DNA of 64,000 nt, from positions 21,327 to 85,326 of the forward strand of contig JAHBTN010000017.1 of assembly GCA_019638575.1 (NCBI GenBank). Reading direction: 5' to 3'. This document shows positions 29,355 to 32,385 of this stretch, piece after piece (the first letter of the stretch is position 1; each line of letters starts with the position of its first letter). The translations under genes and the position numbers were made by a program. Under the pieces are notes generated by a model. It worked only from the letters and a program-made list of their open reading frames with translations. It was not told the origin of the DNA and searched no databases. This stretch comes from Ferruginibacter sp. (GTDB lineage Bacteria; Bacteroidota; Bacteroidia; Chitinophagales; Chitinophagaceae).

Positions 29355-29442
29355 GTATAAAATGTATTGAAAGAGTAGTGAAACGGATAATTTATACCCC
29401 TAAAATCCTTTAAAAAAGATGCATATGAAATATGATATAAAA

Positions 29443-29468
29443 ACTCAATTATTATATCAAAATTGAGT
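29443..29468 (-). terminator. Hairpin terminator after the BtuF-like gene
   Basis: ACTCAATT (29443-29450) pairs with AATTGAGT (29461-29468). On the minus strand TTTTT follows. The stem is AT-rich and modest. Confidence 0.55.
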
Positions 29469-29488
29469 GGTATTTAATAGCCTGGAAT

Positions 29489-30262
29489 TTATTTATTAAC
29501 AGCGTTGATGATAGTTGTAAAATAAGCAGGTGCTTTTAGTAACCTGCTTCCGTACCAGCTAAACATTTCCCCATCTACCAGCATAATTTTAGTTGTTGGC
29601 AATTGTTCCGATAATTCTTCAATATGTTTTTGTTTAAACGGATAAGGTTCGCTGGATAATAACAGTAGTTGGCAATTGGCTTTTTTAATTGCTTCAATAT
29701 TTACCTGAGGATATCTTGAAGTAGTTGCAAATACGTTTTTAAAACCGCAACAGGTAAGCATATCATTAATAAAAGTATTGCATCCTGCAGCCATAAATGG
29801 ATTTTTCCAGATAAGGTATGCTGTACGAATTGTATGATTAAGGCCGGGTATTTGTACAAAGTTTATTTTTACCTGTTTTATTAATTCTTTTGCCTCTTTT
29901 GCTTTTTGTACCAGGTTGCCAATATCTTCAATCATTTGTAAAGCATCTTGCAGGTTGTTTACATCGGTAAGCCAGATGGGGTAATAGTTTGCTAATTGTT
30001 CTACCTGTTCCTTTGTATTTTCTTCCTTATTGGCTATTATTAAATCGGGGTTAAGTTCCTTTACCTTTTCGATATTGATTGTTTTTGTACCGCCAATTTT
30101 AGTTTTTGATTTATACCATTCAGTTGGATGTACACAAAATTTGGTTATAGCAATGGTTTCCTCTTCCAGGTTAAAATAATGTAGCAATTCGGTTTGCGAG
30201 GGAACCAGTGATATTATCCTTTTTGGGAAAAAGCCAGGTTGAGATGAACTATTTAAAATCAT
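29489..30262 (-). CDS. Helical-backbone metal receptor, BtuF-like, without signal peptide
   Basis: This 257-residue protein belongs to the cobalamin/Fe-siderophore binding-protein superfamily: KRIISLVPSQTELLHYF, KIGGTKTINIEKVKELNPDLIIANKEENTKEQVEQL, then the long linking helix and a second lobe (TAYLIWKNPFMAAGCNTFINDML). The N terminus MILNSSSQPGFFPKR has no hydrophobic signal or lipobox, so as read it would stay in the cytoplasm. No permease or ATPase is nearby. It may serve cobalamin salvage, but this is inference. Confidence 0.8.
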   Translation of the reverse strand: MILNSSSQPGFFPKRIISLVPSQTELLHYFNLEEETIAITKFCVHPTEWYKSKTKIGGTKTINIEKVKELNPDLIIANKEENTKEQVEQLANYYPIWLTDVNNLQDALQMIEDIGNLVQKAKEAKELIKQVKINFVQIPGLNHTIRTAYLIWKNPFMAAGCNTFINDMLTCCGFKNVFATTSRYPQVNIEAIKKANCQLLLLSSEPYPFKQKHIEELSEQLPTTKIMLVDGEMFSWYGSRLLKAPAYFTTIINAVNK

Positions 30263-30302
30263 TGGTTAAAAATAATGCTAGTAATTGTTTACTGCATAAA
30301 AA

Positions 30303-30329
30303 AACTTCCATAGCGTTACTATGGAAGTT
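30303..30329 (-). terminator. Strong minus-strand terminator downstream of the peptide-repeat unit
   Basis: AACTTCCATAG (30303-30313) and CTATGGAAGTT (30319-30329) form a perfect 11-bp stem with a 5-nt loop. Read on the minus strand a TTTTTTT run follows. It lies between the repeat frame (stop at 30448) and the BtuF-like gene, so it would end a transcript covering the repeats. Confidence 0.85.
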
Positions 30330-30447
30330 GAAAAATTTAACCAGCCAAGCACATGGGCAGGTTTTTCAGGATTTTTTAGGTTGGATCTTCTTTCGTAAGG
30401 GGGTTACCTTATATGGCAGAGGTTCCAATTAATAATTTATCCTGGTT

Positions 30448-30654
30448 TCAGTGTTTTTCATTTTCGCCATCATCGCTTTTTAGGGCATAGGCAGGATTTT
30501 GGTTTTCTTTGGTTTTTCTGCCATCATCGCTTTTTAAGGCATAGGCAGGATATTGGTTTTCTTTGGTTTTGCCATCGTCGCTTTTTAAAGCATAGGCAGG
30601 ATTTTGGTTTTTTTGGTTTTTCGTCCATTGTTGTTTTACAACTATGGTAGGATA
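30448..30654 (-). CDS. Open frame for a tandem-repeat peptide, no ordinary start codon
   Basis: The minus-strand frame reads 68 residues with three good copies of NQ(N/Y)PAYALKSDDG joined by KTKE or RKTKE, then ENEKH and a stop. Copies differ by three synonymous changes (GCT/GCC, TTA/CTA, GAC/GAT), one replacement (Asn/Tyr) and one in-frame 3-nt gap, which favours translation in this frame. The frame has no ATG, GTG or TTG. An ATG at 30634 lies in another frame and would enter the repeat frame only if one A were missing from the run of seven A just after it (frame MDEKPKNQNPAYAL). It has a plausible promoter and terminator. I do not recognise the peptide; a multi-copy precursor peptide is one idea, a decayed gene another. 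Confidence 0.4.
   Translation of the reverse strand, partial: YPTIVVKQQWTKNQKNQNPAYALKSDDGKTKENQYPAYALKSDDGRKTKENQNPAYALKSDDGENEKH
30466..30654. repeat. Tandem repeat, 51-54 bp units, three good copies and one decayed
   Basis: On the plus strand units start at 30466 (54 bp), 30520 (51 bp) and 30571 (52 bp), each beginning GCCATC(A/G)TCGCTTTTTA and containing GCATAGGCAGGAT. From 30623 a fourth copy is degraded, with single-base gaps that sum to a multiple of three. Unlike a CRISPR there are no unique spacers. Confidence 0.9.
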
Positions 30655-30667
30655 TTATTATTAAAAT

Positions 30668-30718
30668 TTAAAATAGAAGTTGACTGATATCGGATTGTCT
30701 TAGGTGCTTCACAAACAT
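30668..30718 (-). CDS. Possible 16-residue leader peptide ahead of the repeat frame
   Basis: ATG at 30718 opens a frame of 16 codons (MFVKHLRQSDISQLLF) that stops at 30668, 14 nt before the repeat frame. Its end overlaps one arm of the long inverted repeat. Only position and a normal start codon support it; a frame this short can occur by chance. Confidence 0.2.
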   Translation of the reverse strand: MFVKHLRQSDISQLLF

Positions 30719-30792
30719 TGGATACAATTCTATTGGTTTTAATCAGGATTTTGGATAATGATTGATATTTGAATTCCTATCAATCAACTTCT
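30675..30792 (-). ncRNA. Possible structured leader closed by a 15-bp stem
   Basis: AGAAGTTGACTGATA (30675-30689) and TATCAATCAACTTCT (30778-30792) are complementary at 14 of 15 positions. The odd position is a G-U pair in minus-strand RNA but an A-C mismatch in plus-strand RNA, so the stem favours the minus strand. It would close an 88-nt loop directly at the predicted 5' end of the repeat transcript. Confidence 0.45.
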
Positions 30793-30796
30793 GATA

Positions 30797-30804
30797 CAAA
30801 GATG
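30797..30804 (-). promoter_or_regulatory. -7-like box ahead of the peptide-repeat unit
   Basis: On the minus strand CATCTTTG differs from TATCTTTG at one base. The predicted start, about 30791, coincides with the first base of the closing stem. I find no clear -33 TTTG. Confidence 0.4.
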
Positions 30805-30966
30805 CAATAGATTATAATTAAAAAACAGAGCGAATGTGCTCTATTTTTTGAGTATTGATATTACTCTGTAAATAGTAAGTATCCAGTAATGTTAATAGTG
30901 CTGTTACGAAGGAATGTATCGTATTTTTACGTTTAATTAATTTAAAAAAGTTGCACAAAAAAATAA

Positions 30967-30989
30967 TGCTGCATCAGTAGAATGCAGCA
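30967..30989 (-). terminator. Terminator of the PLP synthase gene
   Basis: TGCTGCAT (30967-30974) pairs with ATGCAGCA (30982-30989). On the minus strand TTATTTTTTT follows. It insulates the repeat unit from the gene at 31030. Confidence 0.85.
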
Positions 30990-31029
30990 CTATATTAAGT
31001 TTTAAAGCTTTCGTAATTTAACGATACTA

Positions 31030-32385
31030 TTATTTTGTGAGACTTTGTATTATGTCGTATTTGGTTACAATATGCAGGGTGCCACTATCATCTTTGCTTA
31101 AAACGGCGCCATTTTCTTTTGTTATAAAACTACTCAATCTTTCAACAGGTGTATCAAAAGCTACTTCGGGATAAGGTTTTTCCATTACCGATGCTATTGT
31201 TTCTGCTTTTATATCGGGATTACTCAATATTTTATTAAACAAGCCTCCGGCAGAAATGGCGCCCACACTGGATTCTGCTTCCATCACAGGGATATTTTCA
31301 ATATCATATTTCTTCATTAACTCAATAGCTTCTGCAACAGTATTTTCTTTATTAAGGCTGATAAGGCGTTGTGCCCCACGGCCGCCTACCAGGTCTTTAA
31401 ATGTTTTTACTTCTAAAAATCCCCTTTCAAGCATCCATTGATCATTATATATTTTACCCACATACCGGCTGCCATGATCGTGAAAAATCAAAACCACTAC
31501 ATCATCTTTTGTAAGTTTGTCTTTTAACTGCATAAGTCCCTGTAAACAACTTCCGGCACTATAACCTATAAAAATTCCTTCCTCTTTAGCAATACGCCTG
31601 GCCATTACAGCGCCATCCTTGTCTGTAACTTTGGTAAACTCATCTATAAACTGCATATCGTAGTTTGCAGGTACAAAATCTTCTCCAAACCCTTCACTTA
31701 TATATGGATAAACTTCCTTTTGATCTAACTCTCCGGTATCAAAATATTTTTTTAACAAAGAGCCATAACTATCTATTGCCCAAACTTTTATATTAGGATT
31801 TTTTTCTTTTAAATATTTGCCTGTACCCACAATAGTACCGCCAGTACCTGTTGCCACTACAAGGTGAGTTACTTTACCTTCTGTTTGTTCCCAAATTTCG
31901 GGGCCTGTTTGTTCATAATGAGCAAGGCGGTTGGCTAAATTATCGTATTGGTTTACATACCAGCTATTGGGAACTTCCTGTGCCAGCCTTTTACTTACCG
32001 AGTAATAACTACGGGGGTCTTCGGGTTCTACATTAGTTGGGCATACTATAACTTCGGCACCAACAGCTTTTAAAATATCGGCTTTTTCTTTCGATTGTTT
32101 ATCGGTAGTGGTAAAAATACATTTATAACCTTTTATACATGCGGCCAGTGCTAATCCCATACCTGTGTTGCCACTTGTACCTTCAATGATAGTACCACCC
32201 GGTTTTATTTTACCTTCCTGCTCTGCCACTTCAAGCATCTTTAGTGCCATACGGTCTTTAATACTATTGCCCGGGTTAAAATATTCAACCTTTGCCAAAA
32301 CAGTACATGGCAAACCCTTGGTTACTTTATTAAGCTTAATTAAAGGTGTATTACCTATTGTTTCCAGTATATTATTTAGCCACAT
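31030..32385 (-). CDS. PLP-dependent cystathionine beta-synthase / cysteine synthase with CBS pair
   Basis: This 451-residue protein has a fold-type II PLP domain, residues about 1-325: NPGNSIKDRMALKML carries the Schiff-base Lys, EGTSGNTGMGLAL binds the substrate carboxylate, and ATGTGGTIVGTGKYL binds phosphate. Two CBS motifs follow (about 335-450), typically an adenosyl-ligand sensor. This order fits cystathionine beta-synthase without the heme domain; a cysteine synthase activity is equally possible. It is a single gene on the minus strand. Confidence 0.9.
   Translation of the reverse strand: MWLNNILETIGNTPLIKLNKVTKGLPCTVLAKVEYFNPGNSIKDRMALKMLEVAEQEGKIKPGGTIIEGTSGNTGMGLALAACIKGYKCIFTTTDKQSKEKADILKAVGAEVIVCPTNVEPEDPRSYYSVSKRLAQEVPNSWYVNQYDNLANRLAHYEQTGPEIWEQTEGKVTHLVVATGTGGTIVGTGKYLKEKNPNIKVWAIDSYGSLLKKYFDTGELDQKEVYPYISEGFGEDFVPANYDMQFIDEFTKVTDKDGAVMARRIAKEEGIFIGYSAGSCLQGLMQLKDKLTKDDVVVLIFHDHGSRYVGKIYNDQWMLERGFLEVKTFKDLVGGRGAQRLISLNKENTVAEAIELMKKYDIENIPVMEAESSVGAISAGGLFNKILSNPDIKAETIASVMEKPYPEVAFDTPVERLSSFITKENGAVLSKDDSGTLHIVTKYDIIQSLTK

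Follow-up and report, generated by a model that had tools for sequence, protein, structure and literature searches.

The window (the whole 64,000-nt stretch of DNA that was analysed) carries three near-identical tandem units on its minus strand, between a gene for a cystathionine beta-synthase-like protein and a gene for a Peripla_BP_2 protein. Tandem Repeats Finder placed the repeat at 30461-30622 (period 54, 3.1 copies, 88% matches), with a score of 261 that is the highest of all tandem repeats in the window, and a repeat search gave three units with spacings of 54 and 51 nt. Translation of the minus strand yields NQNPAYALKSDDG / NQYPAYALKSDDG / NQNPAYALKSDDG in a single frame, which confirms the NQ(N/Y)PAYALKSDDG segments described in the original prediction, a 207-nt transcription unit with a translated repeat. 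The -7-like box and the terminator that it had named on the two sides are real as well. The predicted unit is longer, about 495 nt, and includes a fourth hairpin of other sequence that had been overlooked ahead of the three repeat units. The features of the locus are as follows.

31030-32385, minus strand: upstream neighbour, a protein with PALP and CBS domains (cystathionine beta-synthase-like; Pfam)
30862-30877, minus strand: TAC-N10-GTA dyad with NarL 7-2-7-like spacing (fixed position in the copies of relatives)
30826-30849, minus strand: A-tract and GAGC..GCTC dyad, overlapping the -33 region (promoter profile)
30797-30804, minus strand: -7 box CATCTTTG, which we take to be of the Bacteroidota type (promoter profile of the copies)
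30298-30792, minus strand: whole predicted noncoding RNA gene, about 495 nt, with its start near 30792 and its end in a T-run near 30298 (promoter box, clamp helix, terminator; folding energy)
30778-30792, minus strand: clamp helix P1, 5' strand AGAAGTTGATTGATA (inverted repeat and folding)
30759-30767, minus strand: TATCAATCA, a possible local alternative partner of the P1 5' strand (pairing by eye)
30675-30689, minus strand: clamp helix P1, 3' strand TATCAGTCAACTTCT (inverted repeat and folding)
30625-30647, minus strand: first unit hairpin CCATAGTTGTAAAACAACAATGG, of different sequence, between ATATCC and GAAAAACC (fold)
30571-30597, minus strand: unit hairpin 1, the 'PAYALKSDDG' repeat (unit alignment, covariation)
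30520-30546, minus strand: unit hairpin 2 (unit alignment, covariation)
30466-30492, minus strand: unit hairpin 3 (unit alignment, covariation)
30360-30451, minus strand: 3' domain CTGAAACCAGGAT ... AATCCTGAAAAACC (20 copies gathered by end patterns)
30298-30328, minus strand: intrinsic terminator ACTTCCATAG...CTATGGAAGTTTTTTT (fold and terminator call)
29489-30262, minus strand: downstream neighbour, a Peripla_BP_2 protein (metal-receptor or btuF-like; Pfam)

The proposed translation of the repeat did not survive comparison with relatives. In the window, the repeat frame opens after a TAA as YPTIVVKQQW..., and ATG, GTG and TTG were sought in this frame and are all absent. The translated search for the repeat that had been suggested was run in six frames with a 53-residue peptide as the query (E <= 1, 59 genomes); it matched 25 of the 59 genomes, 24 of these in the genus itself (Ferruginibacter), and many matches are interrupted by internal stops. 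The reading frame was then compared in 21 arrays with at least two units, from same-genus relatives and the window. A stop-free frame exists in six of them (the window's and five of the other 20) and is absent from 15, and 31 of the 45 unit spacings are not divisible by three, so that homologues with frame-breaking gaps, which the original prediction had named as evidence against itself, do occur. At locus L014, seven units are spaced exactly 56 nt apart, and the reading frame therefore rotates at each unit.

Each repeat unit is an RNA hairpin with a covarying outer stem. A regular expression for the unit gave 119 matches. The alignment uses the 66 distinct ones among them whose core is 21 nt long; chance matches in genes, other loop lengths, units cut at an end and duplicates were left out. 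The 66 units were chosen by their core, and the flanks played no part in the selection. In the hairpin structure 93.9% of cells are paired, compared with 82.5% in shuffles, and the stem shows 46 double-change cells (13.4 in shuffles) and 13 further pair types (10.2 in shuffles); since the units are related, these cells are not independent events. Pairing falls to 9.6-39.9% when the partner is slid by 1-3 columns. Double changes occur in four of the pairs, which is not in excess of the shuffles (3.9; 440 of 500 shuffles reach 4), and the two inner GC pairs are invariant and uninformative in either direction. The unit core UAUGC...AGC.AYRAU (also written UAUGC...AGCGAYGAU) is nearly fixed, while the outer stem varies but stays paired, its variants being GCC/GGC, GCT/AGC, GTC/GAC, ATC/GAT and GTT/AAC. 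At L029:4066 and in two copies near L029:8400-9700, an inserted small hairpin (CCGATAG..TATCGG) replaces the conserved GATGAT side in some units.

Some of these coupled changes would also alter the encoded residues, for instance where GGC to AGC is paired with GCC to GCT. Of the four changes among the window's units, three are synonymous and the fourth alters a residue (by eye), as had been noted in support of translation; the three 'synonymous' ones map to the apical and internal loops of the hairpin (by eye). The differences follow an RNA hairpin, coupled across its outer stem. A multi-copy precursor peptide or signal peptide would be in keeping with the synonymous bias among these three units and with the stop-free frame in the minority of arrays, but neither an open reading frame with a start codon nor frame-conserved repeats were found. 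Based on the missing start codon, the frame-breaking spacings and stem covariation that changes residues, we rejected a peptide gene as the general explanation and regard it as extremely improbable. The undescribed, insulated minus-strand transcription unit with a promoter and a terminator is supported, and in relatives it lies between the same genes; the translation is not supported.

Two covariance models were used to follow the RNA in other genomes, R1 for its 5' domain and R2 for the unit hairpin. With thresholds of E <= 0.001 in the genus and family and E <= 0.01 in the phylum, R1 matched 50 of 58 Ferruginibacter genomes (at least 80% complete) and 105 of 294 Chitinophagaceae genomes, covering 38 of 101 genera. 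The maximum in the family is 10 copies of the 5' domain, in genome G103; G303 has nine. R1 also matched 16 of 198 genomes drawn from the order and five of 296 drawn from the phylum, and in these two draws it had no match outside Chitinophagaceae; its E-values are rough and its filters strict, so the misses are not proof of absence. R2 matched seven of the 198 order genomes, with strong matches in four genomes of its own genus and weak ones in three others. The weak matches outside the genus (L064, L065 and L066; E 0.003-0.009) include two in other families of the order. Because R2 is strong solely in the genus and R1 is found family-wide, we regard the repeat as a module at the level of the genus within an RNA at the level of the family. 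When named genomes were scanned with a pattern, the matches listed came from Ferruginibacter, Paraflavitalea, Terrimonas, Flavisolibacter, Pinibacter, Cnuella and other Chitinophagaceae, with copies in, for example, Flavisolibacter ginsengisoli DSM 18119 and Ferruginibacter paludis CECT 8366, which are cultured. Eighty of its at least 119 stretches, together with the window and four earlier loci, make up a set of 85 loci with 99 copies; some scan stretches overlap contigs of the relatives' stretches used earlier, for example L132 and L014.

The RNA has no convincing match in Rfam. The window stretch 29400-31100 gave a single chance-like match (E 0.54), and release 15 gave no match at gathering score, whether to riboswitches, 6S RNA or others, in two sets of 17 and 18 loci. 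No description of it was found in a literature search over open-licence PMC papers. A viral origin was considered and rejected, the exact pattern having no match in viral contigs. We conclude with high confidence that 30298-30792 on the minus strand is one copy of a family of stand-alone structured noncoding RNAs of Chitinophagaceae. It is probably a new RNA family, likely acting like a known kind.

The window RNA (30297-30791) folds with a minimum free energy of -94.7 kcal/mol, compared with -71.7 over 100 shuffles (z -4.86), and L012, the second of the two copies folded, has a z of -4.09. In alignment A1, which retains 24 of 27 matches after three reverse-strand ones were dropped, the copies share a 5' domain that starts at the -7 box and contains the 15-bp helix P1 (AGAAGTTGATTGATA/TATCAGTCAACTTCT). 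P1 is almost invariant, with a double change in one of its 15 pairs in A1. In another copy set, most loci of which were picked by a pattern demanding conserved P1 strands, three pairs and four cells are doubly changed, 98.0% of cells are paired (97.6% in shuffles) and the covariation score of 0.065 is barely above the shuffled value of 0.063 (39 of 500). The covariation support is thin because P1 is nearly invariant, and the helix seems to be constrained in its sequence beyond pairing alone. By eye, TTGATTGATA (30787-30759, minus strand) can pair with the nearby TATCAATCA rather than with the distant P1 strand. This local pairing occurs in many copies, although not in L018, and a co-transcriptional switch is possible.

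Downstream of P1, the hairpins are flanked by AUCC and GAAAAACC (GAAARACC-type) linkers, and the window's first hairpin, CCATAGTTGTAAAACAACAATGG, has the same linker setting as the repeat units despite its different sequence. A terminator is detectable in 79 of the 99 copies, with a median RNA length of 385 nt for these (among the matches listed); lengths reach 1343 nt, some terminators probably being placed too far downstream, and 70 copies entered the motif counts. In these 70 predicted transcripts (among the matches listed), CCAATATCC occurs 37 times (0.3 in shuffles), GAAARACC 59 times (5.2) and TCC-N3-5-TCC 112 times (27.8). Segments from AUCC to GAAARCC have a modest excess of folding energy, -4.5 compared with -2.5 kcal/mol in shuffles (35 segments, 23 transcripts), and segments beyond GAAARCC on the other side a weaker one, -2.9 compared with -2.0 kcal/mol (52 segments). 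Rho prefers YC, and linkers that contain C, are poor in G and carry YC dimers at intervals might bind and inhibit this protein. Such a decoy role is unlikely: the spaced TCC pairs and the inner composition of the predicted transcripts among the matches listed (A 34.5, C 22.5, G 15.9 and T 27.1%) agree with it, but the excess of C is mild and CCAATATCC and GAAARACC are more specific than YC.

The 3' domain was gathered in 20 copies with a pattern on both of its ends, a stricter earlier pattern having caught five stretches; its ends are therefore shared by construction. The sole pairing in its consensus fold is a weak 5-bp CAGGA/TCCTG helix with an energy of -3.3. A different 3' part follows the 5' domain in L071, L103, L118 and L125 (Paraflavitalea, Pseudobacter and a relative), with a CCTCCTGC...GCAGGAGG-like hairpin that resembles a Shine-Dalgarno/anti-Shine-Dalgarno pair.

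The conservation extends into the promoter. The region upstream of TTTG is absent from both R1 and the search pattern, and it was compared in the 96 of the 99 copies that have sufficient upstream DNA (among the matches listed, as are all counts for these copies). TTG stands 24 nt ahead of TTTG in 74 of the 96, and a TAC-N10-GTA dyad starts at -77 from TTTG in 60 and is present anywhere in 65; in 200 mononucleotide shuffles its mean was 3.3 and its maximum 8, and TAC/GTA with other spacers occurred in 2-13 copies. Since the copies are homologous, the 60 occurrences represent conservation, not 60 independent events. In records named to other genera, TTG is present in 17 of 18 copies and the dyad at -77 in nine. 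In the window copy the dyad is present near -79 from the predicted start and TTG 24 nt before TTTG is absent (by eye), the -33 element being off consensus. The full GRGCA-N4-TGCYC dyad is found in 22 of the 96 copies, and the A-tract with GAGC..GCTC may act as another operator or as an extension of the promoter. A further dyad, GTA-N4-TAC, lies at -108/-107 from TTTG in 23 of the 96; it is perhaps the site of another regulator. In 20 relatives, the promoter pattern marks apparent copies of the RNA gene as well as scattered, chance-like sites, and we therefore claim no wider regulon.

Judged by its sequence, the TAC-N10-GTA dyad is a candidate site for a NarL-type regulator, as it fits the NarL 7-2-7 spacing; the NarL consensus, which we take to be TACYYMT, yields TAC-N10-GTA in this arrangement. 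NarL sites consist of two inverted 7-bp elements 2 bp apart, and in derivatives of the E. coli ogt promoter one site alone is functional at -67.5, with weak activity at -77.5 (PMC7419079).

The surroundings of the array recur in relatives. Seventeen of 20 relatives' stretches have the PALP + CBS gene, the Peripla_BP_2 gene or both, and in nine, relatives of both flank the array. In L019 and L026 just accD is shared, which is a more distant neighbour in the window, and L023 has no shared neighbour. Among the matches listed, a cbs-like gene is upstream of 45 of the 99 copies, a Peripla_BP_2 gene is downstream of 28, and both are present for 21. We considered whether the RNA is a cis-acting leader, a riboswitch or attenuator of the btuF-like gene whose regulated terminator would lie some 35 nt ahead of the ATG. 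The window RNA lies closely upstream of this gene on the same strand with a terminator between them, Peripla_BP_2 relatives follow those 28 copies, and the local hairpin competing with P1 (by eye) might be a switch. But a leader needs a target on its own strand, and of the 82 copies whose stretch includes a downstream ORF, 23 have it on the opposite strand, while 12 of the 85 loci have at least two copies, with three in a row in L142 (both among the matches listed). Other copies adjoin other genes, and there is no riboswitch match in Rfam. A leader is accordingly rather unlikely, and the opposite-strand ORFs and multi-copy loci indicate that the RNA behaves as a stand-alone gene. The tandem copies in L142 are short and about 410 nt apart. 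At L014:1758-4488, an opposite-strand ORF separates two tandem copies, of which one has seven unit hairpins and the other none of that type.

An inverted repeat pair and several copies per genome would also be expected of a mobile or MITE-like element bounded by 15-nt inverted repeats. The conserved promoter lies outside these repeats, the array and the 3' domain extend beyond them, the site beside the cbs-like and btuF-like genes is recurrent, and the exact pattern is absent from viral contigs; such an element is most improbable.

A second class of copies (class II) points to a regulator. Among the matches listed, eight copies in six loci have a response-regulator gene (cluster-2) upstream, divergent in all eight, and these copies have TTG in eight of eight and TAC-N10-GTA at -77 in six of eight. 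Additional response-regulator and kinase-like genes lie nearby in L092, L102 and L131 and a second response regulator in L128 (mostly by eye), and Pfam confirms a kinase with HisKA_3 and HATPase_c in L092. No kinase gene was found beside the class II copies in the stretches of L128, L134 and L140, and no further response regulator (mostly by eye) in those of L134 and L140. The window's own genome has a second, diverged copy (G000:C11:23826-23957, equal to L189:2827-2958; R1 E 3.3e-5), which is flanked on one side by two NarL-type response regulators and on the other by a histidine kinase paired with a response regulator; Pfam found Response_reg and GerE in three of the proteins and HisKA_3 and HATPase_c in one. 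By eye, its P1 pairs through changed bases, and its TAC and GTA are separated by N11, not N10.

Combining these observations, we propose that the gene is transcribed and that a NarL/FixJ-type two-component system would activate it through the TAC-N10-GTA dyad. The RNA, its predicted 5' end enclosed by the P1 clamp helix, would display a short single-stranded motif many times over, and the displayed copies would titrate an RNA-binding protein, as CsrB and RsmZ do with CsrA. Response-regulator control is somewhat favoured by the promoter and the class II neighbours. Titration is plausible, at a little less than an even chance; the many motif copies, the enclosed 5' end, the variable array, the multiple genes, and the NarL-like site with its neighbours fit a protein sponge. 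Against this model, the commonest locus, with cbs-like and btuF-like genes, has no adjacent response regulator, and repeated motifs can serve otherwise. Taken as a whole, a structured noncoding RNA with NarL/FixJ control that acts as a protein sponge is our best explanation, with even odds of being correct.

The protein titrated by such a sponge cannot be CsrA, as CsrA is absent from the sampled genomes of the family: PF02599 had no match in 60 Chitinophagaceae genomes, and the same search was positive in three of 14 controls, including E. coli and B. subtilis. The window's own genome has three matches to RRM proteins, which are mere candidates for the partner. These proteins would also suit a stand-alone base-pairing RNA, a multicopy antisense sRNA like FopS or GibS with the repeated AUCC as its seed, and multicopy paralogues in one genome and repeated motifs are also features of FopS in Bacteroides (PMC11697453). 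We consider this possible but not favoured: a median of 385 nt (79 copies with a terminator, among the matches listed) is long for an sRNA, and many motif copies per RNA suit titration better than one seed.

The sponge proposal can be set against known systems. CsrB/CsrC and RsmX/Y/Z, under BarA-UvrY and GacS-GacA, are, like the RNA here, stand-alone and present in more than one copy per genome, and they repeat a short motif many times. The motif of Csr RNAs is GGA and the one here is AUCC/GAAAAACC, and the proposed likeness is an analogy; CsrB and RsmZ also need CsrA or RsmA in the host, which the survey of 60 genomes of the family did not find. CsrB and CsrC are transcribed under BarA-UvrY and sequester CsrA, and csrB has an inverted repeat for a FixJ-family regulator upstream of its promoter, the UvrY site being centred near -183 (PMC4682653). 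The TAC-N10-GTA dyad here lies near -79 from the predicted start, and its fit to the NarL 7-2-7 spacing makes it a candidate counterpart of that inverted repeat.

Large structured RNAs of unknown role, such as OLE, GOLLD and ROOL, are similarly long and structured without a conserved reading frame. The RNA here differs from them in that none of 35 loci reached the gathering score of an Rfam family, that its modular array varies in copy number, and that its range among the sampled genomes is one family. FopS RNAs of Bacteroides form a multicopy family bound by the RNA-binding protein RbpB, and the gibS promoter carries a motif for an unknown factor (PMC11697453). Compared by that description, FopS/GibS is likewise a multicopy noncoding family in Bacteroidota, but it belongs to Bacteroidaceae, whereas R1 had no match outside Chitinophagaceae in the 296 phylum genomes, and a tandem hairpin array is not part of the description. 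That NarL/FixJ systems of Chitinophagaceae induce multicopy hairpin-array RNAs of variable length which titrate a non-CsrA RNA-binding protein, as a new, family-wide regulatory system and a counterpart of Gac/Rsm that evolved independently in Bacteroidota, is a tentative and rather doubtful suggestion.

Our analysis also carries a caution: a repeat that stays in frame, with changes that look synonymous, can be an RNA array. A large structured RNA missing from Rfam release 15 appears to be shared by many members of a family that is common in the environment. The array length differs between species and offers a natural series for testing the effects of motif number. Two-component control is suggested by the promoter of the RNA and, for one class of copies, by the neighbouring genes. 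The RNA could provide direct access to post-transcriptional regulation among bacteria that lack CsrA.
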